DNA from: Zeus faber
Taxonomy: Eukaryota > Chordata > Actinopteri > Zeiformes > Zeidae
DNA length: 64,000 nt
Direction: 5' to 3'
Assembly: GCA_960531495.1 (NCBI GenBank)
Contig: OY482863.1
Coordinates: forward strand, 2,235,966-2,299,965
The position numbers and the translations under genes are program-made. Positions 11,871 to 45,379 of this stretch are shown here, piece by piece (position 1 is the stretch's first letter; each line of letters opens with the position of its first letter). Under the pieces are notes generated by a model. It did no database searches. It worked only from the letters and a program-made list of their open reading frames with translations, and had not been told where the DNA came from.

Positions 11871-12159
11871 TTGTTAGGGGTCGCCACAGCCGATTGTCTG
11901 TTTCGATCTCTTCCTGTCCTCTGCATGGTCCTCCCTCGCCCCATCCATGAGCCTCCTCCTTGGTCCTCCTCTTTTCCTCCTCCATTCGTCAGCATCCTTC
12001 CCCACGAAATACCCTGTGTCCCCCCTCCGTACCCGTCCAAACCATCTCAATGTTGCCACCCTGGCTTGACCCCAAGTGTTTGAACTCCTCCACCTTTGCC
12101 ACCTCCATCCCTTGCCTCCTACCACCATTCCACTGCCCTCCCTCTCATCCAGTGCATAC

Positions 12160-12592
12160 CTCCACCTCTCCAGGCTCTCCTCAACCTGCTCCACCTCTCC
12201 AGGCTCTCGGAAACCTGCCCCACCTTTCCAGGCTCTCGGAGACCTGCCCCACCTCTCCAGGCTTTCTTGAACCTGCTCCACCTCTCCAGGCTCTCCTCAA
12301 CCTGCCCCACCTCTCCAGGCTTTCTTCAACCTGCTCCACCTCTTCAGGCTCTTCTCAACCTGCCTCATCTCTACAGGTTCTTCTGAACCTGCCCCACCTC
12401 TCCAGGTTTTTCTCAACCTGCCCCACCTCTCCAGGTTCTTCTCAACCTGCCCCACCTCTCCAGGTGCTTCTCAACCTGCCCCACCTCTCCAGGTTCTTCT
12501 CAACCTGCCCCACCTCTCCAGGTTCTTCTCAACCTGCCCCACCTCTCCAGGTTCTTCTCAACCTGCCCCACCTCTACAGGCTCTCGGAGACT
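12160..12592. repeat. 29-bp minisatellite grown out of LINE RT codons
   Basis: About 14-15 copies of a 29-bp unit (minus-strand core GAGAACCTGGAGAGGTGGGG with variants). The unit corresponds to the VEENLERW stretch of the surrounding LINE reverse transcriptase. Because 29 is not a multiple of three, each copy shifts frame, which explains the long but meaningless ORFs seen in all frames. Copies are more diverged at the 12160 end and nearly identical from 12400 to 12570. Confidence 0.85.
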
Positions 12593-13204
12593 CCCGCCTG
12601 ATCCCGTCCGTCCACCTGTCCATCCCCGTTGCAAACAAGAGCAGGCTCGGGGCCAAACCTTGACGTAATCCCACCTCCACCCTGCAACCATGCCTCACTC
12701 CTACACATCCCTCCACTGTCACACTGTCCTCATACACACAATACCACACCTCCTCTCCCAGCACCCTGTCATAGGCTTTCCCTAAATCCACAAAGACTCA
12801 GTGCAACTCCTTCTGACCTTCGCTGTGCTTCTCCATCAACATCCGTCGAAGCAAACCTCACATCTGTAGTGCTCTTCCCAGGCGTGAAACCATACAGCTG
12901 AACCCTAAGATGGTGGAACTGAGCTTCCACTACTTTATCCCATAACTTTATGCTGTGGCTGATCAGCTTTATAGCTCCGTAGTTACTCACGATTCTTGAG
13001 CATCCGTACCGGCGCACTTCTTCTCTACTGCTCTGGCATCCTCTCACTTTCCAAGATTGAGATAAACAAGGGAGTAAAACCCTCTGCTGCCATCTCTTCT
13101 AAATATCTCCGTGCCTACACAGGTCTGTGATCTGGACCCACCGCCCTTCCACTCTACATCCTCTTCATAGCTGCCCTCACTTCATCCTCGCTAATCCACC
13201 GCAC

Positions 13205-14110: not shown

Positions 14111-15784
14111 GGAGTTATGTCAGTGATAAAAGTAGCCCATATTGAACACTCCTCGCTTGTAGAGTGATATGGCGAAGCGATTCCTGAATTCCACATCATC
14201 CAACCTTGTTCCTCTCTCATTTTCTTCATTCATAAGCCCCTCCAAGTGCTCCTTCCACCTTCTCAATGTGCTCTCCTCGCTTGTTGGCCCAATTCCATCT
14301 CTATCCTTCATCACCCTCCTGCTGCACATCCTTCCCAGCTCGGTCCCTCGGTGTAGCCGTCCGGTACAAGTCCTTTCCTCCTTCCTTAGTGTCCAACCCC
14401 TCGTACAACTCGCCACACTATGCGTCTCTTCCTCGGCCTTCTCCACCTCTCTCCGCCTTACGCCGTCTCTCCTTGTATTCTTGTTTACTTTCGTCATCTC
14501 TCTGACCATCCCACTTCTACTTCGCCAACCTCTTCCCCCGTGTGATTTCCCGTACTTCGTCATTCCACCACCGAGTGTCCTTTCCCAACGGTCTTAACTC
14601 CTCCCTGAACTCCACAAAACAGTCTTCCTTCCTCAACTTCCACCATCTGATCATTGGCTCTGCCTTCACTCTCTTCCTCTTCTCGATCCCCAAAGTCATC
14701 CTACAGGTCACTGTGCGATGCTGACCGGCGACGTCCTCCCCTGCCACCACCTTGCAGTCTCCAATCTCTTTCAGGTTGCACGCCCTGCATAAGACATAAT
14801 CCACCTGTGTGCACCGTCCTTCACTCTTATACGTCACCCTGTGCTCCGGCCTCTTCCCGAAATATACATTCACCACAGCCATTTCCATCCTTTTCCCAAA
14901 ATCCACCAACATCTGTCCTTCCACATTTCTCTCCTTGACACCATAGCTGCCCATCACCTCCTCCCACCTCTGTTCCCTTCGCCAACATGCCCAGTGAAGT
15001 CTGGAAGGGCAGTTTGAAGCCACTGCTGATGCTCTTGGCCTTACTCCCCTTCCGCCCGGTCTCTAGCACACACAGCGCGTCAACCTTCCATCATATCAGC
15101 CGGCTCTCCCCCTTCACCGGTCACCGTGCCAACATTCAAAGCCCAGACTCTCACCTCCACACTCCCACCCTCCCTCCTCCTCCCGCTGACCCCGGACATG
15201 CCCTCCCCTTCTTCTTCTCCTTCGCCCAACGGTAGCATAGCCTCCTCCCCCTTAACCGGGCCAACAGTACTGGGGGCGGGGGTTGGTAACCGGGGCCTCG
15301 ACTGATGGAGTGTGGAAATCAGATTCATGAATCGCATATTTGATATGGCATAGAGGCCAGTGGATGGGTGTTTTTTTGTTTTGTTTTTTAAAACTTTTAA
15401 TCATCTAATGAAAATACATTTGTATTGATATCCTCAGGAGGGAATGTGAAGTTTGACAGTTGCTATGGGTTGCTATGGACTCCAGTTCCCATTTTTGGAG
15501 GATCGCTTCCATTCAATTGCAGAGAGAAATAGATAAAACATACAAAATGTACAAAAATGGAGGAAGGAGGGAAGGAAAAGAGGGGTAGAGGCTTCACACA
15601 AGATGGTTGCACGATTTTCTGTGGTGTTTTTTCACCGAACAAGACTTCCAAGCGTCTTTTAACCCAAACTTGCTGACATTCACGTTCAATGTGAGGGATC
15701 CTCCAAATATGTGACTTCAGCTTCACGTTCCCTGTTGTCTGGTGATAGTGATATAACATCTGCTTGTGACTATTCAAACTAAAC

Positions 15785-16327
15785 ATGCCGGACGATTTTG
15801 AATGGCAGTTGCGTCATCTTGTCAAACGTTATAACAACCAAAAGTACGTTACTTTGCATTCAACTGATTTTTTTGGAACATCAAACCAGATTAAGCAGTT
15901 AGACAGTGGCAGGGCCGAGGCTGCGTTCCAAGAACGTTGGAAATCTGTTTTTCCAGGGCGGGAGACCGCATCCCCGGTCCCGTTGCTTATGTTCTGGGAA
16001 CACGACGCCTGCAGTGAAGCTCTATTTGTTAGTGACATCTACAAGCTGGAAAACATTTCTTCACACGTAGCATCACAGTCAAGTAAAGCGACACGTGTAT
16101 TCAATGAAAAAAATCAGTGCGGAGGCAACTTTATTAATCGTAACCGGTGTTTCCACTTCTTGTTATCTCGCTCAACTCGGTCGCTTTTTGCGGCTTTTTG
16201 CGGCTTTTTGCGCTTTTCTCCAACGGGAGCTTGGATTTCTTTCCGAGTTCGGATTTCGATGGAACGCAGCGTCAGTCACATGGCGGTTGTTTGTGGGCGG
16301 GTCCCCCCTGCCGTCGGCGCATTCTGA
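15785..16327 (+). CDS. Possible ORF of unknown function
   Basis: A 180-codon open frame starts at an ATG with A at -3 (AAACATGCC). The first roughly 95 codons have ordinary composition (MPDDFEWQLRHLVKRYNN at the start). The last third runs into low-complexity Phe/Cys-rich sequence and the promoter of the next gene, so it is unlikely to be coding as it stands. I do not recognise a domain. It could be a retrocopy fragment, a first exon, or chance. The preceding 15340-15784 interval contains no recognisable feature. Confidence 0.15.
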   Translation: MPDDFEWQLRHLVKRYNNQKYVTLHSTDFFGTSNQIKQLDSGRAEAAFQERWKSVFPGRETASPVPLLMFWEHDACSEALFVSDIYKLENISSHVASQSSKATRVFNEKNQCGGNFINRNRCFHFLLSRSTRSLFAAFCGFLRFSPTGAWISFRVRISMERSVSHMAVVCGRVPPAVGAF

Positions 16328-16487
16328 TTGGCCGCGTTCCCTCTGACGTGGCGTCCGTTCGACCAGTCAGCGGGGTAGAGGTCAGCTGTGCTAACGCAGC
16401 TAGCCGCCCGCTAGCCGAGGACTCTGCTCGCTGGAAGTTACGGTGGATGTTGTTTAATCCGCCGCGGACGGAGCTGCGCCAAGCGGG
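16255..16487 (+). promoter_or_regulatory. Promoter and 5' UTR of the UBA/UBX/LRR gene
   Basis: CpG-rich sequence directly upstream of the first coding exon. An inverted CCAAT box (ATTGG) lies at 16327-16331 in the context TCTGATTGGCCGCG. There is no clear TATA box, consistent with a housekeeping CpG-island promoter. An upstream ATG at 16447 opens a frame that overlaps the main start. The transcription start is not determined. Confidence 0.55.
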
Positions 16488-19400
16488 ATGGATTCCACGG
16501 GTTCTCCGGTAAGTTGTCGGAGGTGCCACACGGTCGGCGCGCCATGGCTAGCTGCTGTGGCTCGTAGCTTAGCGTAGCTCGTTTTAGCTCCTGTGTTTCC
16601 CAGCTAGCGGTAGCTTAGCTTTAGCCTCGGGAGTTAACTAAGCGCTTGTTTACAGTCTGTTACTGACGTCACAACAGATACATTTCTTACCGCAGGGATT
16701 AACTCGAGAATCTACGTCAGACGACACGATTATACGGACTCAGCATTAGTTTGGACAATATCTACTTGAACTTTTCGCGATGTTATTTGCATCAATAAAG
16801 TTATTGTTCGTGCTAACCCAGTGCAGCCAGCCCCTGTAGTTGATATGAGTTCAAATGTAATGTTTGTTGAGGCAGGTGTGAAAGAGACAGTAAAGTCTTT
16901 TGCATGGAGACCAGTTAAATATCACCCTTAAATTAAGACTTTGAGAGGAGCACGTGTAGTTAGAGATGATATTAATATTCCCACCAGCAAAGCTCCTCTG
17001 AAGCTGGGTCCAGTTAAAAAGTGTGACAGGCGGGGAGCCATACAGTCAAGTTCAAGAGATTATTTGTCACATACATTTACATACGGTCACACATATATGC
17101 AGTGAAATGTCATCACACGCGGGGATTACGCACAATAAACTCTAAAAATACAGTGAGATGTTTAAATTGTCACTCAATCTGATCTGAAGCAGCAACATGC
17201 AAAGAAGATCTGTCCTGGACTAGAACTTGTCTGGCATTTGGGCCATCGTCATATCTCGGTATAGTTCAATTTAGTCTTTAAGGCTTCATTACATTATGGC
17301 ATGGGAAGTGTATTCTTATTTAACACATTTCATACACAACAGAAATTTCAAGAAGAATTAAAGCTGCAAGCAGTGATCACCGGGTCCTCAAAGTGCAACT
17401 GTCGGTGGGACCTGAAAAATCGTCTAGGAGGAGTTTGTGACAGTACGGAGCATGAAAACGACCAAAAAGTGAATAAAATATCACGTAAACGGTGCCTTTT
17501 TCAAACATGAGATTCAACGCTTCGCCACGCCCATACCGTGTGTTAAAAACAAAATAGTTTAATAACTTTTAATCGTGAATGTGTCTTGTAGACACTCACC
17601 AAGGTTGAAGAATATCCGATAAATTGCCAAGGAGGAGTTTGGGAAAGTACAAAGCATAAAAACGATCAAAAAGTGACCAAAATGGCAACTTTAATAAATA
17701 TGCCGGACTTCCTGTTGGGTGTGGGTCGGTTTCGTGAGTTTTCAAGTATCTTAAGGCCCCCAAAAAGCAGATTCAAAAAAGCTGAAGAAGAATAATAATA
17801 AACAGAGCAATTACAACATTCTGTGGGCTCGGACCCTAAAAAAAGTGTCAGAAAACTAAAAACATTAAAAAAATACTTTGAAAGCAAGGAGATCAATTTA
17901 AAACAGGCCTACACACTCAAAAATGGCAGTGATCAAACCCGTTAGGTGGGACCCACAGTAAAGTAATGCAGTTTTCTGAACTTCATAGGCTGTTCCCACT
18001 CTTCTGATCGCCTTAATATCGACATAATATCCACATAACTGATGATTGTTTCGAAAAATGTAATGCAATGTGAAATGTGTTGCAGACGATCGGGGCCCTC
18101 TTCTTCACGCTCCGTGAGATGGGATTCAGCGAGGAGCAGATCCAGGCCGCCGTGCAGGCGGGACACTTTTCGGTGCCCGCCGCCGCCGAGTGGTAAGATC
18201 CTCCGTACCGGCTGTGTTTAGAAAGTCGGGGCCGTTTTCATTCAGCAGGAGTATTAAAGACCCACGTCTTCTGTGTCCTGCATTCAGGCTCTTGCAAGGG
18301 CATCATCTACGACACAAGCTGGTGAAACATTCCGCTCAACCTGCTGAAACAGCGTTTTCAGCATTCAACCCTCCTAAGGCGGCGGCGGCGGCGGGGACGA
18401 GCGGCTCTGAGCCACAAGCAGCTTCTGATGACGGTCCAGCTCCAGGTTTTGATAAAGTCTTATGTTTATTTTACCTTACAGGACAATGTGGACGTTTGTC
18501 ACACTGCTTTGGTTCTGCCAGGTGTGAACTGGGTTTGAGGGGAAGAATCAGGGTTTCTGCAGTTCCTTAAAATGCATTTTCAAGGTTATTAAATATTCTC
18601 AGATTTGTCTCAATTTCAACACATCTTGTCTTGAGTTATCCATGTATGTATTTTTTTGAAACATCAAGTCCGTCAACATTTCTTTTGTTCTAAAATCCAA
18701 AATGTAATACTTCTCCCTCTGCGCCTGCACCAAATGTAAACTACTACTGAACTGCAATACTTTGTTGAATACAAGAGATGATTTGTCCAAAAACAAATAT
18801 TACATTTTCTTTGAATTTGCCTTCAAAATATAACATTTAACTCTCTGAAACCTCTAGTCTTCATATGTATTTTACCTTTACTGCAGGTATCAACAACTCC
18901 TGTGGAATACTTTTTAATACCTTTATTCAATCCTGTTTAGCAACTTGATTTGCAGTGTCCCTATTCTGAATAAACAAATACCTGCTTGCCAATGCTTTTT
19001 ACTATCAGAAGCAAACTTTTTAATACTATATTTAATAATGCAATTTCAGATTTTTTTTAAATTTTTGCTAAATAGATTATTTTGAATAACCTGCAGATAG
19101 CAAGCTCTATTCTTTCTCCATCGTGGGAATTGTTTAAGGAGTATGTTATGTATCATTGCATTCGTAGATTTTCTTGTAATAAAATATGACTCTCACAGCA
19201 CATTATATAGGCATATTATTATATTATTTTGGCAAAATGGAAATGTTTATTGTTTGATACATTTACGAACATACATGTATATTTTGTCAGCGCCCTCAAC
19301 CTCCTGGGACTGTTTCTCATCTTGATGTTTCCCAGCATGCACCCTTCTGACCCTGAGAACGCCGCTCGGCTCTGCCTCGTCCCCCGAGCCGCCGACGATC

Positions 19401-22400
19401 GAGTCTCGTGTGAAAGCCGACGTGAGCGACTTCCAGGAGCAGAGGCAGCGCGTGGCGCAGGAGGCGCGAGCCGAGAGGCGGCAGAAGAAAGAGGTCAGAG
19501 GACATCCAACACTCCGGTCGCTTTCTCACCTTTTAGTCCGTTTGCCTCGTCCAAATCAGAGTGAAAATTGTACTTTCGGTTTGTTTTCCTTTTGGTCCAA
19601 TTCGGTTTCACACTGCCTGGGCCCAGCATGCCTAAGCCCACTGGACCTGGGGCCTGTCGCTTTAAGAGATTGCGTTGTTGGTAATGTCGGAGCCCTGTTG
19701 GTGCATGGAGGAGCAGGCGTGTTTATGGAGAAATGTAATCTAATCTATGTAACTGTCTAATCTAACCCAACTGTAAAGGAAGGGATCTCTGTCTGTCTGT
19801 CCTTTGATTATCTCGACAATCGTTTATCAAAATCTACTTCACACTTGGCGGTGGTATTGTTTGGGGCCCAAGGACCTGCTGTGTCAAATTTGGTGCAGTT
19901 TGGACACACAACACGTGTGATATTAATAAACGACAAGCGAACAGCAAACCCTCAGCCGCTCAGCTCCGTGCAGCAGTGGGACGGGGAGGCTTCAGGGTTT
20001 TGCAACTGAGTCACTTACGTCCGTCACAAAGGAAGGAATCTCTGTGCGGGAGACTCTACCCACCGATACGGGTTCAGGGAGGGAGACGGAGATTCTCAGG
20101 CTGTGAGGTGCCGACGCGGCGGGGTTTTTATTCAAAGGATAAACAAAAAGGCTCAATGGCTAAAGCGAGCATACTTTCGTCTCCACGTGGTGGTGACTGA
20201 GGGACGTGTGGCCTGGCAGTGGGGGCAAGACATCAGAGAACTGCAGTTGTAACATGGCCACGTCCACATTCTGGCCAGGAGAGAGATGGTTCTGGAAAGG
20301 GTCGGGGTGGGGTCCGTCGCTTTTGGAACCTCCGGTGCAAACTCCCTGAGCCGGGCCCCCTCTGTCGTATAACCAGTTATCCCAATTACGGCAATCCTCG
20401 TGCACAAACTTACAAACCATGTTATGCCCAAAAGCTTGTAAAGTTCCCCAAGTGTACGTGTCATTAAAGAAGTGCCCTGGTCAGTCACTGCGGTCTAACG
20501 GCAGTACCTTAGTGCCCTGGTTTGCCTCGTGGTCTCCTGCACCACGCAATCTCCACAGCAAGACAAAACCCAGCCCAGTCGACCAATCAGCGCTAATGAC
20601 AGTCATTAGGCGGACGTGGTACAGCTGCGCCGCAGCGGGAACAAGCCAGCACCTTCACATGAGGACACACTCTGTCTGTCTGTCTTTCGATTATCTCGAA
20701 TGGGCATGCACTGGCTCTGCAACTGAGTCACTTACCTCCGCGGTGCAGCCCGTTCCGAACAGGCATGTTTTGAATGAGCATGCACTAGTTTTATTCTAAA
20801 CTTTAGAAGTAGTCTGTCCACTTCCTGTAGTCCAGAGTAATCACTACTTGTCGGAAGTTCCCACTGAGAGCCAGCGGCGTGTGGGACGGAACAGGGCTGG
20901 AAAAGTAAACAAATGTGGGTGGGTATGTAAACAAATGCCCCAACCGCAACCAATAATAGACAATTGTAATTTACAATGTATGTTGTACATGAACACACTA
21001 GGGTATGCTTGGAACCGGTCCCAGACCACCTCTCTCACGCTGTCTAGGACTGGTTGTTTTGGTTCCCTGCCGAGTTCCATTTTGGCTTTCACACCTGCTT
21101 AAAGGAACCGCACCACAGGGGGGGAAATGTACCAGGGTTCCATTCAAACGGGCTGAACACGGCAGATGTGAAAGCGCCCTCAGATAGAAACAGAATGTGA
21201 AGGGAGATTAAAGCCACAGAATCAAGCAACAAAAACCTTCTTTAAAGGGCCCTATTATCGGCCCGTTTTTTGTTTATGAATGTCAGAAGATTATTAAAGA
21301 CGTTCCGCACTGTATAAATAACACATCATATGGTATTCCCTCCATACCTACCATGCACTCCCCATCCCCACATCTCTCTGCATTCATTCATCCGGTATAT
21401 CACACTGTCTCATCCAGCAGACTTTATAAGGAATCACATCCATGCACATGGAATTTGACTCAGTATGGTGCCTTGTTTTACTCAATCAGACACACAGACA
21501 AAAGACAATTGACAATATATATATTTTTTTCTTTTGTGATTGTGTATAGAGAATATACAGGAGGCACAATGTAAAGTAAAAGGCTGTTGCAGCATTATTG
21601 TACTAAATACTAAGTTTGGGTTTGAAAATAAAAATGGTCGGTGAATTAGTGTATAGATGAATGAATAAGTATGTATACAATAATTTTACGTGAATATCAA
21701 TGGATAAATATTTACAATATGTTGCTTGTCGTCATAGTATTTTAATAAGGGTGACCACATTTCCTAATTTCTTTGCTCAGAACCTCTAAAAGTGCGTCCA
21801 TTTAACTGGTGTGTAGCTTGTGAAGCGGTTGACATTGAATATAATACCTGCTTCCAGGAGCGAGAGCTGGTTCTGCTGCGTATCGCTGAGGACCGCAGGA
21901 GTCTGCAGGAGAAGACGCAGAGCAGCGCAGCGGAGAGCGCTGCCCCCACAGAGCAGGCGCTGGGAGGGAAGATCCAGACAAACGTGGACAACAACTGCAT
22001 CCTCATGGTGAGACCCAGGAGAGCCCAGCCCAGTCTCATACATTTAATAACAATGATAATACATGTTATTTATACCACAACATTCATGCATGAAATACAG
22101 CTCAAAGTGCTTCATATAAAAAAAAAATAACAATAATAATGGGATAAAAAAAGGAAAACAGACAAATGAAAACAATAACATGTAAAGTGGATAGAAAGCA
22201 GTTTAAAAGTGCTTCAAATTTAATAGAAGATAGTGCGCAGAAATAAAAACAATATACAAATAAAAATTGGATGTAAGAATAAAATGTGCTGCTTATTGTA
22301 TGCACAGTTAAATCATTTGTTTAAAGCTTTCGTTTAAAAATGTCGTTGTCAAAATGTGACGCTTTTTACACACAAAAAAAAAAGTGTTGGAAGTGTTGAA

Positions 22401-25400
22401 TTCTTTTTATGTGACAAAATACCATACTAATGATAATAGACACAAATAATGATTTTTTTAATGACTAATAAAAGGCAATTTATTATTTGATGTGTAGCTG
22501 TTTGTTAATTAATGAGACTATTGAGGCGTAAAATGTTTATTAATTATTATTATTATTATTATTATTATTATTGTTATTATTATCTGTATCGCTGTCAGTT
22601 TTATCCTAATGCCATTATTTCCATTTTCATGGCTTTACTGCTATTGCACTGCTGCTATCAACTATTTGTGCTGCATTTTAGCGTAACCTGCCACCTGCCA
22701 ATTTGATTTATTTTCTCTTGCACTCTTCTGTCGACCTAACCCTCTTCCCCCAGATCCGCCTGCCCTCTGGGGAGTCAATGCGGGAGCGATTTCCTGCCGA
22801 CGCCCCCCTGCGCAGTGTGGTCGAGCACATTTCGGGCCGTCACCCCTCGCTGCCCTCCTTCTCCCTCCTCCAGGGGTTTCCACGGAAACGCTTCGGAGAG
22901 GCGGAGCTCTCCTGCTCCCTGCGCTCGCTGGGCCTGACGCCCAACGCCGCGCTCTGCATCCAGACCACGCCCCTGGAGACGCCCCAGCAGCTGCCTAGCC
23001 CTGTGGCCCCACCCCCTCCCCAGAAGGAGGCGGAGCCTCCACTGCCGCTCCCTGCCCAGGGGGAGGAGGAGGAGCCTGTGCTGCCTCCCCCACTGCTCCC
23101 CCCCCAGCTGTGGGAGGAGGCGGTGGGCTATGCAGGGATCCCCGGTGTCGGACCGCCGCTGCCTGGGCCGTCCCACTTCTGGGGTAGGTGTTACTATGTG
23201 GAGAATGTTATTTTTTGTAGTAATTCCTTTATTCACTGCTTTGTTGCCATGAAACTGGACTGAATTCTAAAAATCTGAAATATAACAGCAACTCAATGCA
23301 ATTACATGACATTACATTGGTGTCCGATTAAGGTTTCAGATTTCACCAACGTTCTCTGTGCATCCATAACCCATAGTGTTTTAGTATTAGGCTATTAAAT
23401 ATTTGCACACTTATGATTTCAAGGCACAACAATATAACAGACTCAGGGACGAATTCACAGAATGCATTGTGGCCTCTAATAGCGCTATTAACTGGCATCA
23501 ATTGCTCCCACTGTCTGCGCTGTCTTAGCATCCGATTAAAAAATATATAAATTTTGTTTTATTGTGCAATATGACAGGGCAAACACGCCCATAAAGTTTT
23601 GCTGCTGAGTGCAATTTGCCCTTGTTTTGCATCTGATTGCTGCTCCGCGGAGATGTGCGGATTCAAACACGTTATACTGTACTTTTAGGTTAAATCTACA
23701 TAGTATTTTTAGGTTTTTGTGCAGTATAGCACTATAAAACATTTAAATAGTATGTGTTAATCTATAATATATATATATATAAATATATCAATAAATAAAA
23801 CTTACTCTCCCCACACAGTTCATTTATTACATGTGTAAATGAAAATGTGTATAAAATGTATGTATGTGTAAACAATATAAAATGTGTGTATATCCCAATT
23901 TTCCCCATTACGCACAATGCTTGTTTTGTTCCATAAGGAAACAGAGTAAAATAAAATGAGCCACATCTAAAATAATCCAATCGCCGGTACAGCTGCACCG
24001 GTTGCACCGTCCGTCGGTACTTAGGGCCCTGTCTCCCTCTCTGGCCAAAGGACATGGCCGCATATTGCTATGGACTAATTGCGCCCGATCATTGCCTCTC
24101 CGTGCCCCCCCCCTGGGTAAGTGCCCTAGGCGGTCGCCTATATGAAGCGCCGGCCCTGGCTGTGACACTAATAATAATACAATTTAAATACATGCAAATA
24201 GCACCAGCGCACCGAGATGCTTTCTGCTTGGAAGTGCAGTTAGGTTCTTTTTGTGTCATTTGAGCAGGTTTGGTGGCTGCAAAATCCACGCAATCTTTTT
24301 GTGAATTTGCCCCTGACTGTTGAAACCCATTCTGTGGTCTGCTGCCTCTTATAGGTCTTTGAAAGAATTGCAGGAGATCCGCAGCTTATTTTTAACGTAT
24401 TCTTTTTTTCCACAAAAATAAATACTCTTTCTTCACTAATGAGGGAGTTTGGGGCCTTGCCATAAACAACAGTTTGGGAACCTTTTTGTGGTTTAAATGC
24501 CTGAGCAGTCCGGCTAACTCTCAGTTCTGGTTCTGTTGGACAGGGCGTGGCCGTAAGTTGGTTCCCGGCGTCGCCGAGGATGCTCCCAGCCCAGACGAGG
24601 ATGAGGATGAGGACGATGACGATGACGATGAAGATGTGGCGGAGAGACAGGAGGAGCCGCCTCCCATGGTGAACGGTATTTGGCTCAGTGTGTGTGAGAG
24701 CTCTCAGAGGAACTCTCTCCGAGACGTCATCTTATCTACTTGTGAACCACACTACAGTACAGTTGTGAGGGACATATGTGAAGACAGCGTGGATTAGGAT
24801 GTCCTCACATTCCAGGTTGGGACCTTATGGTCCCTCAGCGCTGCGTTTGGCTCACTGCCAGCCTGTCATCCCGTCTGAGAACATGTGTTTTCCATCCAGT
24901 CGTCTGAATGTAGCACGTGATCAGCACTCTCAGAAGGAATCCACGAATCAGAGCAAAGCATGTTGATCAGCAGTGCTTTACAAGAGCACTTTTGTGTGTG
25001 AGAATGTGTCTTTTTCTATATATACCTGCTTCAAAGGGATACTGCTAACCGTGTTAGCGCAATGCATGGCTGCAGAGGGGTTCAGCTAGCCTAGCTCCTG
25101 TGAAATTAGGGAAAGGACCTTCCAGCGTCTCTAAAGCTGGGTTATTTAACCAATACTTCTTGTCACCATGATGAGTTCAATAAAGCACCATGAAAACAAC
25201 ATTTTAGTTTTGAATGAGGCTACATTCAGAACTACTATAACTAATTTTAAAAGCAAATTTCACCCGAAAAAAACAGAGTATTCCTTTAGACATAGGGAAT
25301 GAAATCTGCTTTATAGACGGCAGTCCGAGTCAAATTGGTTCTGTCGCTCAATGTAAAAGTAATTGTAACTTCTCTACGTATTTCCAAAAGGTTTTAAATG

Positions 25401-28400
25401 TTTATTCCTTTTTTTTTGGAGGGGATTATAAAATGGGATTTTGATCACAGTAACTAAACAGCAGAAAACATGCAGCGGGTGTACAGTAGTGGTTTTTTTT
25501 TTTTTTAACAAAAACAAATTTTGATTGACATGGAGTGTTTTGATTTGAAGTCTGTTCTCATGGATCACCACTGGTCCATGTCCCAGGAATGCCCAGGCTG
25601 CCGTTCCTCCCGGAGAACCGGCTCCGCGGAGGCTTCGAGCCCCGGCACCGGTGGCCGGAGCAGGGGAACCGACTCAGGTGCGTGTTGCGGGCGAGTGGGA
25701 CTAAAATATCACCTTGTGTTGTTTTTTTATTGTTTCAATATTATTGATTAGTTTTGATTCACATCACACGACCCTAACCCTTAAAAGAGGCAACGGTGTC
25801 ATTTATTATAGACTCTTCTTTATTGATATATGATAATTGTAGAATTGCTGACACTCCAATTTCCCTTTAGGGTATTGATCTAGAAATAATTTGAAAGAAT
25901 ATTAGAGATATAAGATATTTCATGAGTCATGTTTCATACTAGGGAACCGCTGAAAGCTTTAATTTACAAACCCCCGGTATAACAACGTAAGACTCATAAC
26001 CCTAAAGGGGAAGTTCAGGATATCAAAAAGCCTGTTTCTCCGTGTGGCAGGGAGGAGCCGGCGGAGGAGCAGGCGGAAGCAGAGGATGCTGGGATGCGAG
26101 CGGTGCCCCGTGCTGCCGGCCTGGCCGCCGTGGAGCGCCTCCAGAGGGCGGCGCAGGACGAGCCTCCGACCGGACACGGGCACCCGTCCCCCCCCAAGAA
26201 GGCCTTCAGGGCCCCCAGCATCTCCACCCTCTGCAGCATGGCCACCAGGGCCACCGTACACCTCATGACCGGTCAGTGACACTAGTTAATACACTAATTA
26301 ATACACTACTTAATAAACTAGTTAATACATTAGTTAACACATGAGTTAATACACTACTTAAAACACTAGTTGATACACTAATTGATACACTAGTTAACAC
26401 ACTAGTTAATACACTAGTGAACTTGGTACAGTAAAGGTTTCTCTGAAGCGTCATGACAACGTGCTGAGAGAAAGTGGAGCGTCTACGTGTCCATCTAGTG
26501 TTTCCCATAAGGACACCAGCACCTCAGCTCCCAGCACGCAGTACAGCAGCAGAGTATCGTACGTAGTACTGTAGCAGCGTGTGCTCCGCCCTCAGCTCCC
26601 AGCACGCAGTACAGCAGCAGAGTATCGTACGTAGTACTGTAGCAACACGTGCTCCGCCCTCAGCTCCCAGCACGCAGTACAGCAGCAGAGTATCGTACGT
26701 AGTACTGTAGCAGCGTGTGCTCCGCCCTCAGCTCCCAGCACGCAGTACAGCAGCAGAGTATCGTACGTAGTACTGTAGCAACACGTGCTCCGCCCTCAGC
26801 TCCCAGCACGCAGTACAGCAGCAGAGTATCGTACGTAGTACTGTAGCAGCGTGTGCTCCGCCCTCAGCTCCCAGCACACAGTACAGCAGCAGAGTATCGT
26901 ACGTAGTACTGTAGCAACACGTGCTCCGCCCTCAGCTCCCAGCACGCAGTACAGCAGCAGAGTATCGTACGTAGTACTGTAGCAGCGTGTGCTCCGCCCT
27001 CAGCTCCCAGCACACAGTACAGCAGCAGAGTATCGTACGTAGTACTGTAGCAGCGTGTGCTCCGCCCTCAGCTCCCAGCACGCAGTACAGCAGCAGAGTA
27101 TCGTACGTAGTACTGTAGCAGCGTGTGCTCCGCCCTCAGCTCCCAGCATGCAGTACAGCAGCAGAGTATCGTACGTAGTACTGTAGCAACACGTGCTCCG
27201 CCCTCAGCTCCCAGCACACAGTACAGCAGCAGAGTATCGTACGTAGTACTGTAGCAGCGTGTGCTCCGCCCTCAGCTCCCAGCACGCAGTACAGCAGCAG
27301 AGTATCGTACGTAGTACTGTAGCAGCGTGTGCTCCGCCCTCAGCTCCCAGCACGCAGTACAGCAGCAGAGTATCGTACGTAGTACTGTAGCAACACGTGC
27401 TCCGCCCTCAGCTCCCAGCACGCAGTACAGCAGCAGAGTATCGTACGTAGTACTGTAGCAGCGTGTGCTCCGCCCTCAGCTCCCAGCATGCAGTACAGCA
27501 GCAGAGTATCGTACGTAGTACTGTAGCAGCGTGTGCTCCGCCCTCAGCTCCCAGCATGCAGTACAGCAGCAGAGTATCGTACGTAGTACTGTAGCAACAC
27601 GTGCTCCGCCCTCAGCTCCCAGCACACAGTACAGCAGCAGAGTATCGTACGTAGTACTGTAGCAGCGTGTGCTCCGCCCTCAGCTCCCAGCACGCAGTAC
27701 AGCAGCAGAGTATCGTACGTAGTACTGTAGCAGTGTGTGCTCCGCCCTCAGCTCCCAGCACGCAGTACAGCAGCAGAGTATCGTACGTAGTACTGTAGCA
27801 ACACGTGCTCCGCCCTCAGCTCCCAGCACGCAGTACAGCAGCAGAGTATCGTACGTAGTACTGTAGCAGCGTGTGCTCCGCCCTCAGCTCCCAGCATGCA
27901 GTACAGCAGCAGAGTATCGTACGTAGTACTGTAGCAGCGTGTGCTCCGCCCTCAGCTCCCAGCACGCAGTACAGCAGCAGAGTATCGTACGTAGTACTGT
28001 AGCAGCGTGTGCTCCGCCCTCAGCTCCCAGCATGCAGTACAGCAGCAGCCTGTCGTGCCTGACCCCGGAGCTGGCCGAGCTGCTGCTGGGCCACATGTCT
28101 CGGGAGCGGCTACTGCGTCCTCGCACCCTGGAGCTGTTCTTCGGCTGCCCGCTGCAGAAGTTTGTCCTCAACTGCTACCCGTACTCCACCAACGACCTCC
28201 TGCGGCAGCTCCGCGCCTTCCCCGCCCTCAAGCACCTGAGCCTGGTCAACTCGCCACTCATCACAGGTTTGGAAAAAGGGAATTTTACAAATGAGTAACT
28301 CCTGGAGTCGCTCATGTGGTGGATCAGGGAGGCGGCGTTGATGCAGGTGTTTAGTAGCGTGTAGGATACCGTCTGTTCCGTTCACCCTGAAGGGAACTTG

Positions 28401-31400
28401 GGCCGTCAGATCCTGCGCCCATGCATTTAAACTCATTAGTATTTTAACATTAATTTATTTGATGGTGCAAACACTTCTCTTGACTTTGTCAGTTTCTCTG
28501 TCATGGTTTGATGATAAAAATAATAAAACCTTTGTCAGATGAAAGTGCATCAAGTGCTACATAACCCCAGTGATGCTGTTTTAACAGATATATACTCTTA
28601 TTTCTCCTCAATCTATGTTGTCATTCAACGTTCTAGTTTAAGAAAACACACTTGGTGGAGGCAACTAGTTTTTAAGTTGGAGGCAATAACTGACCCCTTG
28701 AATCTCCTGTGTCCGTGCTGCAGATTCTGGTCTGTCGGTGCTGTCCAGTTTGGTCAAACTCCAGTATCTGAACCTGGCGTCCTGCAGCAAGCTGACCGAC
28801 TCCTGCCTGCACTGCATCACAGGTGCGTCCTCCTCCCGTCACAGCGGCAGTTCGGCCTGGAAACGGCAGTTCAGCCAACGGCCACTAGATGGTGCCCCAG
28901 AAAAAAAGGAGAAATACAAAGTCACATCAGTTTGCTTTTCCTGGAGGGCGTCTGGGTTGTGATTTTAATGTTATTTTCCCTTTCAGAGGACATAAATGAC
29001 AACACTGATATGAATGATATTCGTGTTCGAGCAAGGTGGGCGTGTCTCTTCCTTCCTCCGACTCTGGCGGTTTAAATTCAAATATATTTTCTGAAATTAA
29101 ACCTTTCATTCATGATTTTATTTCATCATATCCGTCAAATAGCTTAATTACATATGATATAAGCTGTTGAACCATGTTGGATTACTTTGCCGGTAGAGAA
29201 ATACAAGGGCCCCCATTAGAAGCAGGTTGGCCGCCACTGGTCCACGTTGTGATGATGAATCCAACAGATGCGTGCAGGAACGCTGGGCTCCACCATCATC
29301 TGCTAAGACGTCTTAGGTGCTGAGGAACAGGGTTTGACCCGTACCAGGCATTTTGTCAACCTCGTTGTTGTTACGTCAAATATAATGGTGTCTTTGTTTT
29401 GCAACACGGTCGTTTTTCAGAATAACAATCGATTTTCCATTTATACAGTACGTGTTTATGTGTTTACTGACGTTGCCATTAGGACCAGGAGATAATCATA
29501 AGGCAGGTTTCTCACCCTGTCGCTTGAATTTTCTAAAACCCCAAAATATACAAGACAAAAAAATATATAAAAATGTGCACCTTCATCCGGAAAATGTGAA
29601 ATATGTGTGTTGACTAGTAAACGGGCTAAAACTCGTTTTGGCACCAGTACGGTCCTTTTTATTGTTTACTGATCATTTTTCCCACATCTCAACTCATCAA
29701 ATTGCATCGATCACAGTGTTAAAGACCGCGTCAGCGTTTTGGCGTCTTTATGTTTATTTTCACCAAATGCTGCATCGTGAGCTTTGTGTTTTTCCTGCCG
29801 TTCGGTTCACTTCAGTTTGGAATGAAAATCAGCTTGAAACTCACTTGACTTTGAGTTAATGTTGCCTTCTCTAATCTAATGCAGATACAATCACGGATTC
29901 CATGTGTGTCCCTGCCAGAAAATAGTCCCTGTAGAGAAGATGATTTTACAAAATGGACCTGAATGTCGGCTGGAGAAGCTGGGGGTTCATCACCTGAGCG
30001 TTTGAATACAGTCGTTGTAGTATTATAAACTGTGGCAACGTGGTATAAAATGGGATCCTTCATGTTAAAACACAGCTGTGGTTCTTTAAAAGTCACTCGT
30101 ATTTACTCCCTCGTAGTACTTATCTGAACAGAAACAAAAACCCCTTCCTTTGTGATCTGAACCCGGCTCCAGGCCTGAAGAGCCTGTGCTTCCTGACTCT
30201 GGACCAGACCAAGGTGACCGATGCGGGGGTCGTCTCCTTCCTGCGCTCGGCACCCCCCAGCCTCACGCAGCTCAGCCTCAACCAGACGGCCGTGACCGAG
30301 CTCACCATGCGCGCCCTGCCCTCCTGCGTGCCACAGCTCCGGCTGCTCAGCATCAAGCAGACCCGGGTACCGCACGCTCCGTCACCTCCGTCAGCACCAT
30401 CGGAACACTTTACTTAGGCATAGTATAATATACTTTATGAAACAGTTTCAAAAAGGCTGATGAAGCAGGGACACTAAAGTATGACGTCAGACCCGTTATA
30501 AAAAATAAAATATGGAACTTTATGTACATTTAACCTTTTATTTACTCTACAAAACTGTAAATCAAAGTAAGGGCCGTCACTACCTGGTGATTTTAGTGGG
30601 CAGTTGTTTGTTTTTTTCTTTTTCTTTTTTCAGTTTAGCTTTAAACTCATGGAAGCAGATCAAATATTTCTAAATCAAACACAAATCAAACAAGGGAATT
30701 AAATGTGAGTATAACAATGAACATGTATACACACATTTACTGTATCATGCTGTTTACTGTGTGAATGTATTATTGCATGGTTTTTAAATTCCCCTGTTTG
30801 ATTTGTATTTAATGTACTATTAATGGATGTATGTATATATTTTTCTTCTAACAAATGGGTTCTATATGAATTAACATTCTGAGCGTTGGGTTGGTAAATA
30901 ATTAAAAAAAAAAAAAAGAATAAAAACAAAACACAGCTTTAAGATGCGTGACCGTGAATCTCTGCACGATCTCATCCAAGTCACTGCAAATCTCTTTTGA
31001 GAATAATTGTCTTTTATGTTCATTGTTATTCCTCAATGGGAAGAAAAGCCCTGAGCACCGGAATAAAACAGTGTGTGTCGTCCACACTGGGTGGATTTGC
31101 CTTCACTCATCTGATGAAATCCTCCTTTTTATTCCACCGTCTTGTCCCTCGGTCCCTCTGGGTCTCCCCAACGATGGCCGCCCTCCGTGACGTCTCCGCG
31201 GTGACGCTGTCTCCATCGCCCAGGTGAGAGACGTGTCGGCACTGGCGGAGCTGCACTGCCTGCAGACGCTCCACCTGGACGGGACGGGCGTAGCCGAGGA
31301 GGCTCTGACGCACCTGGCCGCCCACCCCGCCCTGGCCACCCTCAGCCTGGCGGGCGTCGCCGTGAAGGACGGAGACCGAGCGCTGGAGATCATCTCAGGT

Positions 31401-31467
31401 GCCAAAAAGCAAAAGTACTTATCCTGAAGGGGAGTGTTGGTCAAGAAAATAAAAGCAATATACAATT

Positions 31468-31512
<45 letters not shown>

Positions 31513-32354
31513 AATCATCATCATCATAATAGTTAAACAAAAAAAATATACAGTATATAGAAATACAAAATGGCAATAAAATCGTAAAAACTATAAAAGG
31601 GCTAAAGTATGAATCATGTTGGGTAGCATGACATCGCTGGAGTAGATTTCTCTAAAAAATGACGAAGTGACATGATGGAGATATTGTCTCGTGGTCGATG
31701 GCTGATTAATTGGGCCGATATTTGCGCATTTTGAGATAATCGCCATCACCTGATGCCTGCGCTGACGAGGCCGAGAAACAAAGTCTGCAGACTAGTGTTG
31801 TCAAAAATATCTATTTTTCTATACATATCCATTGTGAGTATTTGAAACTGTTGAAATACTCGTTTTCAGCACTATTGATAGACCAGTATCAGCTGCTTCC
31901 TCACTCTCTGCTCCCACAGCGAGTCACTCACACCGCTGCAGCGCCCACATACTGTACCCCCACCCCCTCTCCCCCACCCCCTCTCCTTCCGCCTCCTTTT
32001 AGTCAGTATTTTATGCACTAGTGCTCCCTCTGGTGGTGGCCTTGCAATTTACCTTACCTTAATTTACCTTTTCATGTGACATCCCATTTACATGAGCAAC
32101 ACCAGTCTCATTCTGCCACCTGTTCTGTTAATCGTAAAACACTTTTTTAAATGTATTTTCGTGTGTGCCTGCCTGCCTGCCTGCGTCCCCCAGGCCTCCG
32201 ACTGACCCAGCTGAACCTCCCCGGACGCCACTTGGTGACGGACAGTGGTCTGGCGTTCCTCTGCCGGCTGAGGCTGCTGACGGAGCTGGACCTGACAGAC
32301 TACACACAGGTCACTGACCAGGGGGTCCGCCAGCTCAGCTCCATGACCAGGTCA

Positions 32355-32402
<48 letters not shown>

Positions 32403-34464
32403 AAATGAGTACCTATTCATACACGTGTGTGAAACTCATTTTCGGTCCCAGAACCAGAGTAGTTATGAATGGATTATTATGAATGGATTATTATGAATGG
32501 ATTATTATGAATGGATTATTTCAGGAGAAGCTTCTTCCGACTAATTCTCAGACTTAAATCAAAGAGAAAATTTGTGACAAGTTATTCATACTTATTTATC
32601 CATATCTTATGGATAAATAATTTGATTGTCCATTCATTTATCCAACGTGTAACCATAGTGTATTTAAGTATTTTACGGTTGAATCTAGTGTGCAGCTACT
32701 CCCATTGAACTTATAAGTGGTTGTTTTAGGCTCTTTGAAGAGATTATGGAGTTAGATATATTATTATTAGATAGAACGTGGGGTCAGATATTGATTTAAT
32801 TATTATTGTTATTATTATTGAAAAGAACGTGGGGTCAGATATTGATTTAATTATTATTGTTATTATTATTGAAAAGAACGTGGGGTCAGATATTGATTTC
32901 ATTATTATTATTAGATAGAAGGTATCGAACCAAATCATAAATTTGACCAAAATAGTGTCCAATACTTTTGTTACCTGGGGGAGAAAGAAATGATGAACCC
33001 AATATTCATGTCAATATACTGAAGTCAAGCTACGTACTTCAAACTCATATTAATGGTTGAGGCCAAAACAATAGGAAAGGCGTGGCTGGTGTGGCTGATG
33101 TGGTTGATGTGACGGTGTCTTCTCAGGCTGAAGAGGCTTTCTCTCAGCAACATTCAGCTGACGGACGCAGGGCTGCCAGCGCTGTGTGGGCTGCAGGATC
33201 TACAGGAGCTCTACCTGAACCGAACCACCGTGAGCAGCCGGGGCGTGGCGGCGCTGGTCACCCGCCTGCCGCACCTCCAGGTCCGTCAAACCCCCCAAAA
33301 AACCCCGCGACTGATAACCAGTGTGTTTTAAAGGGAAACTCGTCGCCTGACGCAGCCGCTGGATTCACGTGGAGGGAAATTAAGCAATGAGATGATTGTT
33401 CATGTTGTTTTATCCTTTTTTTTTTTTTTTTAACTTAGAATTGCAGCTCCACTCATGTTGGTGTTGCTTAGTGAAGTCGGTAAAAAAAAACATTTTCCAG
33501 CCGTCGTCCCCAAAAAGCTCAAGATTGTAGATGAAATAAAGGAACAAACCCTGACGGCCGCTCCGAACGCTGTGTGTGCTGCAGGTGCTGAGCTTGGCCA
33601 GCACCCGGGTGGGCGACAACGTGGTGCGCAGAGGTGTCACCCACTGTCCTCAGCTGGTGAAGCTCAACCTCAGCCAGACCCGCGTCACCGACCACAGTGA
33701 GTCCACACTGACACCCGGGCGCTCACCCCAACTCTGACCCGTAGAGGCACCCGGCTTCCATTCCACAACCTCGACCCTGCCGACCCGCAGGCTGGAGGTT
33801 GTTCTGGACGTGGTGCAGACTCTTTCCACCACCGTCGCTGCAGCTCCAGTCACGAAGGCTCAGCTGTTTTGAGCCTCGTTCTTGACCAGTCGCTCAGTAA
33901 AAACAGTCCTCCCACTTGATGCAGTTGGTATAATTCACGCTGAGCTACAGTGAACGAGTGAGAAGTCATCCATTTTTTTTTTTGGCAATGATTGCACTTT
34001 ATTTTGGATTGGCAAGTACTAGATATAGATATCATATATATGGATAAAAGGTCATTGACATACATTGAAAATGTATTATTTGTCTTGTGTGAAGCCTTTG
34101 AAAATGAATAGAGCTTAAAAAGTATTTGAAAGTCCTTGAATTTTACTTTGTAATGCCAGAATGAACGTCAAGGTCGCAACCTGCGCCGTTTCTACCCAAT
34201 ACTTACCTCTCTGTTCCAAGTATGTAGAGCTTACCTGCGACACTGAATGGAGTGACGCGTGGTGCTGAAGCCTCCTCCTCCTCCTCAGGTCTGAGGTTCC
34301 TGCGCGGCCTCCAGCTGGTCCAGGTGAACCTGGACGGCAGCGGCGTGACGCTGGCGGGCGTCGCCGGCCTCCTGGCGCTCACCTCCATCCGCAGCGTCCG
34401 GGCCAGCGGCACCCGCAGCATCGCCCTGGACGACGTCTCCGATGACGACGGGGAGTCCCAGTGA
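16488..34464 (+). CDS. UBA-like/coiled-coil/UBX protein with LRR ladder (17 exons, 925 aa)
   Basis: Predicted p97/VCP cofactor with a substrate-reading LRR array. Coding exons by my reconstruction: 16488-16508, 18086-18192, 18288-18445, 19336-19493, 21858-22007, 22754-23183, 24544-24675, 25587-25677, 26051-26271, 28024-28266, 28724-28822, 30173-30366, 31224-31398, 32194-32350, 33127-33280, 33585-33696, 34289-34464. All junction phases agree. Residues 8-46 are UBA-like with the MGF loop (LREMGFSEEQIQAAVQ). Residues 121-180 form a charged coiled coil. Residues 194-271 are a UBX fold with the p97-contacting FPR loop (LLQGFPRKRF, F240-R242) and an Arg in the first strand. Residues 272-340 are proline-rich, and 358-372 are almost all Asp/Glu. 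From about 545 to 905 come roughly a dozen LRRs of the FBXL/AMN1-like LTDAGL type. No F-box is visible. The N-terminal half resembles UBXN1 in layout. I do not recognise a named gene for the whole chain. Exon 3 uses a weak donor (CCAG then GTTTTG), the least certain junction. Confidence 0.85.
17345..17845. repeat. Dispersed fish repeat in intron 1
   Basis: Contains two related blocks (AGGAGGAGTTTGTGACAGTA near 17427 and AGGAGGAGTTTGGGAAAGTA near 17631), each followed by AAAACGA(C/T)CAAAAAGTGA. The start resembles AGCTGCAAGCAGTGATCACC and the end has an AGAAGAATAATAATAAACAG run. The layout matches non-coding dispersed repeats common in fish. No ORF. Confidence 0.5.
19494..21857. other. Intron 4, with unclassified dispersed repeats
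   Basis: A GTCTGTCTGTC word followed by a CGATTATCTCGA-like stretch occurs at about 19787-19815 and again at 20673-20700. CAACTGAGTCACTTAC occurs at both 20005 and 20720. At 21010-21180 there is a segment ending in GATGTGAAAGCGCCCT, which resembles a hAT-like end. These point to one or more nested non-autonomous elements. No coding exon is seen in this intron. Confidence 0.4.
23870..24160. repeat. Dispersed repeat, second copy of the 7245-7640 element
   Basis: Shares ordered sequence blocks with the copy near 7.3-7.6 kb and ends at about 24160 in GAAGCGCCGGCCCTG, a hAT-like terminus read in reverse. It lies in intron 6 of the UBA/UBX/LRR gene. Non-coding. Confidence 0.5.
24985..25320. repeat. 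Dispersed repeat shared with 39480-39685
   Basis: Both copies carry the words GCAATGCATGGCTGCAGAGG (or CTCAATGCATAGCTGCAGAGG), then CAGCTAGCCTAGCTCCTG, then ACCTTCCA, and end near GGAGTATCCCTT or AGTATTCCTTTA. One copy lies in intron 7 of the UBA/UBX/LRR gene, the other in an abcf2 intron. Non-coding. Confidence 0.6.
26280..26422. repeat. Short tandem repeat (CTAGTTAATACA-like)
   Basis: Imperfect tandem copies of about 10-12 bp (ACTAGTTAATAC and variants) at the start of intron 9, directly after the exon-9 donor. Confidence 0.8.
26523..28018. repeat. 68-bp minisatellite, exactly 22 units, in intron 9
   Basis: Units start with CTCAGCTCCCAGCA every 68 bp from 26523 to 27951 with no indel at all. 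The 23rd occurrence, at 28019, is the real acceptor and start of exon 10, so every unit carries a copy of the acceptor (TGCTCCGCCCTCAG) and the first roughly 30 exon bases. Variants are CACGCAG/CACACAG/CATGCAG and CAGCGTGTG/CAACACGTG. Seven units have a CACGTG E-box. Units 10-15 and 16-21 form a nearly perfect 408-bp duplication. Confidence 0.97.
31468..31510. repeat. (AAT)n microsatellite
   Basis: An AAT run in intron 13 of the UBA/UBX/LRR gene. Similar triplet runs occur at 9359-9391 and 22543-22574. Confidence 0.9.
32357..32401. repeat. (CA)n microsatellite just after the exon-14 donor
   Basis: A CA run begins six bases after the splice donor at 32351. The intron 14 start is therefore length-variable by nature. 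Confidence 0.95.
32467..32925. repeat. 14-bp and 51-bp tandem repeats in intron 14
   Basis: Four copies of GAATGGATTATTAT (14 bp) lie at 32467-32520. Three copies of a 51-bp unit (GAACGTGGGGTCAGATATTG plus an ATT-rich tail) start at 32774, 32825 and 32876. The apparent minus-strand ORF with repeated KSISDPTFFSIII text is an artefact of the second array. Confidence 0.9.
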
Positions 34465-35055
34465 ACCCTGCGCTCTGATTGGTCAGACCCCCCCCCCCCC
34501 CCCCCCACTGCACTGCACTGCTTCCCCAGGAGACGACTCGGTATCAACCTGAGTCGACCGGCGCCATCGGCTTCCACAGCTTTCACATGGACCCAGTGTT
34601 GAGCAGCGATTCAGTAGCTTAAAAAGCAGGTTTAAAGTATATGTACCAACACCCAGCATGAATATTTAACAAGACAATCTACTCAAGGTAATTACATTTT
34701 ACTTTCAAGCAACTCACCTGAAAAACTTTCCAAATCATCAGATTGGCACCAACTCAATTCTAATTATTCTAATTGTCATTTGTTAACGAGGTTTAAGTCT
34801 CACAACAGGAATCGACGAGTGACTTTGTGTTTTGGGAGGAACGTTCTGAGACGACTGTGCAGCCCAATATATTTTTTTAATATTAAATATTTTGAAGTTA
34901 ACATTTGATGACACAAAGCAAAACAATGTTTCTCTTCTTTTGTTTACAGAACTGTAAAATACTGTTTATTTTGCAGACATTGTGGTTATTTTTGGATGAG
35001 ACCACCATGTCCAGTACATTTACAGATGCAGGAATGAATAAAGTTGCATTTTAAA
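34465..35055 (+). other. 3' UTR of the UBA/UBX/LRR gene
   Basis: From the TGA at 34462-34464 to just after the AATAAA at 35037. A C run at about 34488-34506 is present. The rest is AT-rich without ORF. The end point is inferred from the poly(A) signal. Confidence 0.6.
35037..35042 (+). terminator. Poly(A) signal AATAAA of the UBA/UBX/LRR gene
   Basis: Canonical AATAAA in the context GGAATGAATAAAGTTGC, about 570 bp after the stop codon, followed by TG-rich sequence (CCTGTGTTTATTTGG) typical of a downstream element. Confidence 0.65.
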
Positions 35056-44112: not shown

Positions 44113-45240
44113 CGCTGTGCTGGGGTGTCCCCAAACCGTGCCGAGAAGAAAGGAGGGGTGGGGGTGGGGTGGGGTGGGGTGGGTGGGGAAAAAGGATTTC
44201 AATTCAAAGGTTGCTGCCACTTCATGCAATCCGCGTCGAACCGACCTGCATACTTGGGACCGGGTAGTGGGAAACTAAAGCACTCAGGATTGAAGATAAA
44301 CAAGCGATTTGGATTGTAAGCCTACACTGCTAAGCAGCCATCAAGATTTGGGCTGTCACGATCATGACATTTTAGTTGACTTTTAATTATCATACAAATA
44401 ATTGTGGGGTTTTTTTTAGTTTTTTTTTTAAATCTTTATCGTAAATTAAAAACACCATTGAAGATTGGAACAAGAGAGCACTGAGGATGCATCAGCTGGG
44501 GTGTTGGATTTGTGTTTATTGAGACATCTCTAACGTCCTTATCTAATAGGTGTGACAGCTCTAATCAGGATGATCTGTGTATGATACAGCAGCGGTGCTC
44601 GCTGTCAGCAGCAGGTGAAGCACCCCGCCGGCAACGTTCTTATATGGTTCGGCTTCTTATATTCTGAGGAGGTGAAATATGAATCACACTAATGTGCCGG
44701 GAGCTCAGGCGCTGCGCACCTGCAGCACGTTGCGGGAAGGACTGCCGGCTAGCCGGCTAGCCACCAACCAAGCTCCCGCTCTCACAGTGTCAGGCTGGGT
44801 GTCACCGAAAAACCAACTCATATTATTGAGAAAAAAAATACAATGGTCCCACGGATTTACTCACTGCGGGAAAACCAGTCATATAGTTCACAATTAGAGG
44901 CTCGACCGGCTAAGCTAAGCTAAGCTAAGCTAAGGTCCGTTAGCTTTCAATGCGCGGCTGGGCCGGCTAGGCTAACAGTGCTAGCCTTGCCGGCAGGCCT
45001 GTTATTGCGCCGCGAGGCCCGGTAACGGCGGCGTTTATGGCGGGTTAACCGGCCAACGGCTCCTTCTCCCGAAATCACCGCCATCTCTATTATTCCGGTG
45101 GCGCGAGAGGCGCTTCGTGCCGGTTCCGTTTACCTGCTTGGTCACAACTGTGCTCGCGCCGGTGTCTCGTGTCCGCCGCTCGCCGGGTGAATGTGGCCGA
45201 GGCGCCAGACAGACCATATATGGTCATGGGGGGGCGGGGA
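44113..45240 (-). promoter_or_regulatory. abcf2 5' UTR exon, first intron and promoter
   Basis: The coding exon begins with an acceptor two bases before the ATG (CACAG at 44119-44115, then CG, then ATG). The likely non-coding first exon ends at 45134 with donor AAGCAG then GTAAAC. In the intron, next to the acceptor, lies a G-rich tract (44155-44188, GGGGTGGGGTGGGG type) on the + strand. A GCTAA repeat occurs at 44910-44935. Upstream of the exon, at 45212-45225, there is the perfect palindrome GACCATATATGGTC, which contains a consensus CArG box CCATATATGG. Confidence 0.6.
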
Positions 45241-45375
45241 GCTCTAAGCCCCGCCCCTTATGACCGCATTTGGCGTCGAGGGGGCGGGGATATCCCCGAG
45301 GCCCCGCCCCTCCCGCACACTCCGCGTGGGTCTGCAGTGAAAGGCCGTGATGCGGCGTTCACGTCACGTGGGACA
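45228..45375. promoter_or_regulatory. GC-box cluster and E-box upstream of abcf2
   Basis: GC boxes lie at 45231-45240 (GGGGCGGGGA), 45249-45258 (reverse), 45281-45290 and 45301-45312 (reverse). A GTCACGTG E-box/CLEAR-like site lies at 45363-45370. With the CpG-rich surroundings this looks like a housekeeping promoter. Factor binding is not shown by sequence alone. Confidence 0.6.
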
Positions 45376-45379
45376 TTGT

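Follow-up and report, generated by a model that had tools for sequence, protein, structure and literature searches.

The best reading of the locus, to which we assign a probability of about 0.6, is that a single gene specifies an adaptor of p97 (VCP) of the UBA-UBX type, related to UBXN1 by common ancestry and extended by an arm of leucine-rich repeats (LRRs). The window, that is the whole stretch of 64,000 nucleotides analysed here, corresponds to positions 2235966-2299965 of contig 19 (C19) in an assembly of 803 Mb and 153 contigs, which by its size and its genes is probably that of a bony fish. In its favour are a 17-exon model with an unbroken frame, UBX and LRR matches above their cut-offs, coding character in the linker exons 7-9, the recovery of a single gene under all 12 relaxed settings of a gene finder and two introns shared with a UBXN1-like gene.

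The gene was rebuilt from GT-AG splice sites around open reading frames, which returned a plus-strand model of 17 exons and 925 amino acids extending from 16488 to 34464, with the phase intact throughout. The first-pass annotation had proposed a phase-consistent model of 17 exons and 925 residues, and the rebuilding reached the same ends. The features of the model, all on the plus strand, are the following.

16488-16508, plus strand: exon 1, 21 nt, start codon and MDSTGSP; coding score -4
18086-18192, plus strand: exon 2, the greater part of the UBA-like domain, MGF loop included; its end splits a Trp codon, TG/G
18288-18445, plus strand: exon 3, rest of the UBA-like domain, then an Ala-rich linker; start backed by a shared intron, 3' end uncertain
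19336-19493, plus strand: exon 4, charged coil
21858-22007, plus strand: exon 5, coil and start of the UBX domain
22754-23183, plus strand: exon 6, UBX domain with the FPR loop (PF00789), then a Pro-rich tail; preceded by the intron before IRLPSG
24544-24675, plus strand: exon 7, acidic linker; coding score +37 in the required frame, donor below 0
25587-25677, plus strand: exon 8, linker; coding score +18
26051-26271, plus strand: exon 9, linker with SISTLC near its end; coding score +45
28024-28266, plus strand: exon 10, LRR cap and first repeat; coding score +72
28724-28822, plus strand: exon 11, LRR; coding score +0.5
30173-30366, plus strand: exon 12, LRRs; acceptor and donor scores both below 0
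31224-31398, plus strand: exon 13, LRRs
32194-32350, plus strand: exon 14, LRRs
33127-33280, plus strand: exon 15, LRRs
33585-33696, plus strand: exon 16, LRRs
34289-34464, plus strand: exon 17, last LRRs, acidic C-terminus and stop
35037-35042, plus strand: AATAAA, a possible poly(A) signal; the motif is frequent in the region, mostly within introns

Coding character was evaluated with a three-periodic model trained on two neighbouring genes (3330 nt). Scores in the required frame were positive for 15 of the 17 exons, barely so for exon 11; the negative ones were the very short exon 1 and exon 3 (-47, z -0.6), whose donor reads CAG/gttttg. Splice scores, for which assumed base frequencies served as weights here and in gene finding alike, fell below 0 at six sites of the model: two acceptors (exons 2 and 12) and four donors (exons 3, 7, 12 and 13). 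Just upstream of exon 1 lies a 185-aa open frame (15770-16327, plus strand), 180 residues of which gave no Pfam match to E 0.01 and which is possibly a fragment of a mobile element.

The domain content of the predicted protein was then assigned by Pfam searches. The UBX domain (PF00789) scored 54.5 bits at residues 193-268, where 21 bits is the cut-off, and chains of UBXN7, UBXN4 and FAF1 were retrieved among the PDB sequences. Its loop reads GFPRKRF, and the FPR aligned on the FPR of the UBXN7 and FAF1 chains, in agreement with the intact loop originally described. The UBA domain (PF00627) was placed at residues 15-44 with an E value of 0.011, below the Pfam cut-off, and contains an MGF loop, which together with the shared intron described below speaks for a UBA. 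Three LRR families exceeded their own cut-offs (LRR_4, 1.7e-18; LRR_8, 6.3e-13; LRR_14, 1.4e-11). A core LRR pattern, composed after inspection of these very repeats, gave 17 matches in 12 distinct repeats between residues 490 and 925, whereas 1000 shuffled sequences averaged 3.2 matches and never exceeded 11; about 14 repeats were counted by eye, and about a dozen had been reported earlier. The two halves are joined by a linker that is acidic at residues 346-389 (19 of 44 residues are Asp or Glu). The exon model and the Pfam matches thus reproduced the previously proposed order of UBA, coil, UBX and LRRs, with the UBA below its cut-off, and, in line with the reported lack of an F-box, none was present in the Pfam list of 12 families to E 1. 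Single-sequence AlphaFold models were of too low confidence for use, with a mean pLDDT of 56 for the UBX piece of exon 6 and 59 for exon 10; the former, modelled without the start of the UBX domain encoded in exon 5, was helical with almost no strand, a result that is uninformative at that pLDDT.

The relationship of the first half with known UBX proteins was explored within the same genome, where eight UBX matches were found, the window gene included. One of them, on contig 10, we take from its sequence to be a UBXN1-like gene. In this gene the UBA intron splits a Trp codon as TG/G (AMDW/LMEHEND) and a phase-0 intron in the UBX domain precedes VRLLDG; the window gene has introns at the same codons and in the same phases, TG/G in AEW/LLQG and phase 0 before IRLPSG. 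The comparison at the UBX site covered four of the six other UBX matches (L003, L004, L007 and L008, with L005 and L006 left out). The UBX domain continues without an intron at the shared site in the FAF1-like gene (L004), unlike in the window gene, and also in L008; at the UBXN7-like locus (L003) only an exon beginning further in was observed, and the UBXN4-like locus (L007) shows an ambiguous acceptor-like site some codons earlier than the shared intron.

Alignment of the UBX domain with the UBXN1-like gene gave a score of 75, reached by none of 1000 shuffles (mean 27.5), while the FAF1-like piece scored 76; since the UBX score cannot single out UBXN1, the kinship rests mainly on the two introns. 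The score of the short UBA piece against the UBXN1-like gene was reached by 28 of 1000 shuffles, and that of the coil against the coil of the same gene was not above chance (316 of 1000). The kinship of the first half with UBXN1 is therefore upheld by the two common introns, the UBX sequence alone not being decisive, and a common ancestor of the two is part of the reading preferred here. The window gene resembles human UBXN1 (SAKS1) also in the order of UBA, coil and UBX. The UBXN1-like gene, however, ends right after the UBX domain (GLVPSAVLVVTKK, stop), whereas the window gene has no intron near the UBX end and runs about 650 residues further, into the LRRs, so that in its model the UBX domain is not C-terminal, contrary to the UBXN1 lineage. 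UBXN7 and FAF1 likewise are p97 adaptors of the UBA-UBX type that carry an FPR loop, and neither is known to contain LRRs. A further difference is that Ubxn7 has UAS and UIM parts, according to a published study (PMC9633789).

Whether the UBX and LRR halves belong together depends on the region between exons 6 and 10, and we consider it likely that they form one fused gene. Linker exons 7, 8 and 9 scored +37, +18 and +45 in the frame that the fusion requires, with both other forward frames negative; the best reverse-strand frames reached +17, +5 and +20. Gene finding by dynamic programming, run with two relaxed sets of thresholds, returned a single gene under all 12 settings. The optima agreed to the base with between 9 and 11 of the 17 exons, nine of the 12 omitted the given exon 1, and six began at 17700, bypassing the UBA exons. 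Once the penalty for opening a new gene was discounted, a forced break cost about 18-22 bits at 23300 and 32-36 bits at 24800, compared with 3-7 bits at 27000 and only about 1.3 bits at 25300, between exons 7 and 8.

A stricter and cruder run, the thresholds of which shut out six splice sites of the 17-exon model, gave two or three genes in all nine settings. The break fell between exons 7 and 8 (25048/25589) in five of the nine, and the LRR part was itself broken (31427/32151) in all nine, as consistently as exon 9 was linked to exon 10. Taken together, the low cost of a break at this point and the strict splits identify the join of exon 7 to exon 8 as the weakest link of the model. The same results are what would be expected from two adjacent genes merged in the model, one for a UBXN1-like adaptor with exon 6 or 7 as its last and one for an LRR protein that begins in exon 8 or 10, and this arrangement is also consistent with an in-frame ATG near the start of exon 10, with AATAAA motifs within introns 6-9 and with the composition of the windows from 26501 to 28000, ahead of exon 10 (GC above 0.55, CpG o/e 0.78-0.84). 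We regard it as rather unlikely, given the single gene of all relaxed settings, the coding character of exons 7-9 in the joining frame and the constant link of exons 9 and 10 under strict settings. The single UBX-LRR transcript proposed by the first-pass annotation is accordingly favoured by the relaxed optima, with the strict split at exons 7/8 speaking against it.

CpG content was also considered as a guide to the number of gene starts. The CpG o/e of the gene region peaks at 1.25 in 16001-16500, adjoining exon 1, and this peak was initially taken as support for a single start; the argument was withdrawn, as windows above 0.75 are common and also occur before exon 10. With GC- and CpG-rich sequence there too, the CpG content is compatible with a second start and does not settle where transcripts begin.

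The intron between exons 9 and 10 contains a further element.

26522-28048, plus strand: 68-bp minisatellite, 22.5 copies with 95% matches, between exons 9 and 10

The array is specific to this locus, all 23 genome matches falling within it. Its unit includes the end of intron 9 with the acceptor and, following it, 25 bases from the start of exon 10, with one base different in most copies, and the 18-base string spanning the exon 10 acceptor occurs 22 times, once at the real site and 21 times in array copies, all of them upstream (exon starts 26596 to 27956). Splicing of exon 9 to any of these decoy acceptors would give APS(T/M)QYSSRVSYVVL and then a stop in 21 of 21 cases (17 with T, 4 with M), that is after 15 codons and ahead of the LRRs, with a UBA-UBX protein of 504 residues lacking the LRRs as the predicted product. 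This uniform outcome and the identity of the 18 bases around the decoys with the real acceptor would suit a gene whose main product is a short UBA-UBX protein, made through retention of intron 6 or use of the decoys, with the LRR half rarely included. Such a scheme appears quite improbable, because the LRR exons have open frames and, with the exception of exon 11, clearly positive coding scores, which suggests selection on the LRR half. A related proposal, speculative and in our view improbable, is that the minisatellite acts as a switch, in which the 21 acceptor copies would compete with the real site, each giving the same LRR-less UBA-UBX protein but for one varying residue, and the number of repeats, which may vary from one individual to another, would govern how much targeted relative to untargeted p97 adaptor is made.

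UBX domains dock on p97, UBA domains bind ubiquitin and LRR solenoids bind proteins. In the single-gene UBA-UBX-LRR reading that we prefer, the FPR loop of the UBX domain would dock on the N-domain of p97, the UBA would bind ubiquitin on a client, and the acidic linker would tether a solenoid of about 14 LRRs able to bind selected clients, or a ligase already present on them; p97 would thus be brought to selected ubiquitylated proteins and not through ubiquitin chains alone. We infer the client-binding role of the LRR arm, like the other steps, from knowledge of the respective families. A published study of UBA-UBX adaptors, which mentions four vertebrate UBA-UBX cofactors, infers that ubiquitin chains are where these adaptors and p97 come together and that the substrate is probably not contacted (PMC9633789), and this published inference counts against a client-binding function of the LRRs. 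Should the joined transcript be real, the protein would be an adaptor that could choose its own targets. It would offer an example from nature of a p97 adaptor selecting its clients directly, a question that removal or addition of the LRR arm would make testable. It would also be a member missing from the list of 13 mammalian UBXD proteins given in a review, in the main text of which the terms "LRR" and "leucine-rich" are absent (PMC5085755).

The LRR half might alternatively make the protein a substrate receptor of a ubiquitin ligase, of the F-box or BC-box type, in addition to a p97 adaptor. The sequence SISTLC at residue 472 is BC-box-like, is the sole match of a loose pattern and precedes the LRR cap; of the BC-box and cullin box that CUL2/CUL5 receptors carry ahead of their LRRs, it was the only sign. 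Six residues in a protein of 925 are nevertheless weak evidence, and the Pfam search described above listed no F-box, so that we hold a ligase receptor to be very unlikely. A ZER1/ZYG11-type cap, suggested by eye from SISTLC...LTPELAELLLGHM, was tried and rejected: 950 of 2000 and 886 of 2000 shuffles reached two local-alignment scores, and the comparison with the N-terminus of a ZER1-like protein of the same genome remained at shuffle level. What the window protein has in common with the ZER1/ZYG11 receptors of CUL2 ligases is a weak Pfam match to LRR_Zer-1 (E 0.012, below the cut-off), the cap being the point of difference. A similar cap may occur in a plant LRR family. FBXL proteins (FBXL2, FBXL17) and GALA proteins have LRRs alike in sequence, and the window protein differs from them in having no F-box.

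Relatives of the whole architecture were sought in the genome, in other databases and in the literature. Exon-by-exon genome searches, whose sensitivity was limited, as the UBXN1-like gene was not listed by them and diverged copies may likewise escape detection, revealed no second copy of the UBX-LRR arrangement, and consequently no paralogue backs the UBX-LRR join. All eight matches of the LRR-half exons were to the window gene; the first-half exons gave 12 matches to E 1, eight to the window gene and four weak ones (E 0.001 to 0.5). Among 144 pattern matches of the LRR half in bacterial and archaeal genomes, one was to a planctomycete LRR locus with 32% identity, which, judged by sequence, is generic LRR likeness. 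The PDB matches of this half were equally generic, and the NCBIfam matches, to an internalin-type LRR model and others, were far below cut-off. No UBX-LRR protein appeared in the titles and abstract openings of the open-access papers listed, direct phrases for such a protein and a fish-directed search gave no paper, and an automatic annotation of an orthologue probably exists.

Finally, the surroundings of the gene were inspected. To its right, tail to tail on the minus strand, lies an ABCF2-like gene, a 68-aa exon of which best matches yeast ARB1, presumably a relative of ABCF2; a second exon gave no Pfam match. Beyond it follows a gene of the CHGN family (459 bits), probably CHPF2, which we believe to be adjacent to ABCF2 in human too; no literature on the synteny of the locus was found. 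The segment at 45001-45500, with a GC content of 0.60 and a CpG o/e of 1.19, is probably the promoter of the ABCF2-like gene. Elsewhere in the window, open frames at 47376-48612 and 61322-63761 resemble by eye the reverse transcriptase and endonuclease of non-LTR retrotransposons, and a short tandem peptide repeat present in several frames (NLPHLSR...) at 12084-12663 is probably a minisatellite.
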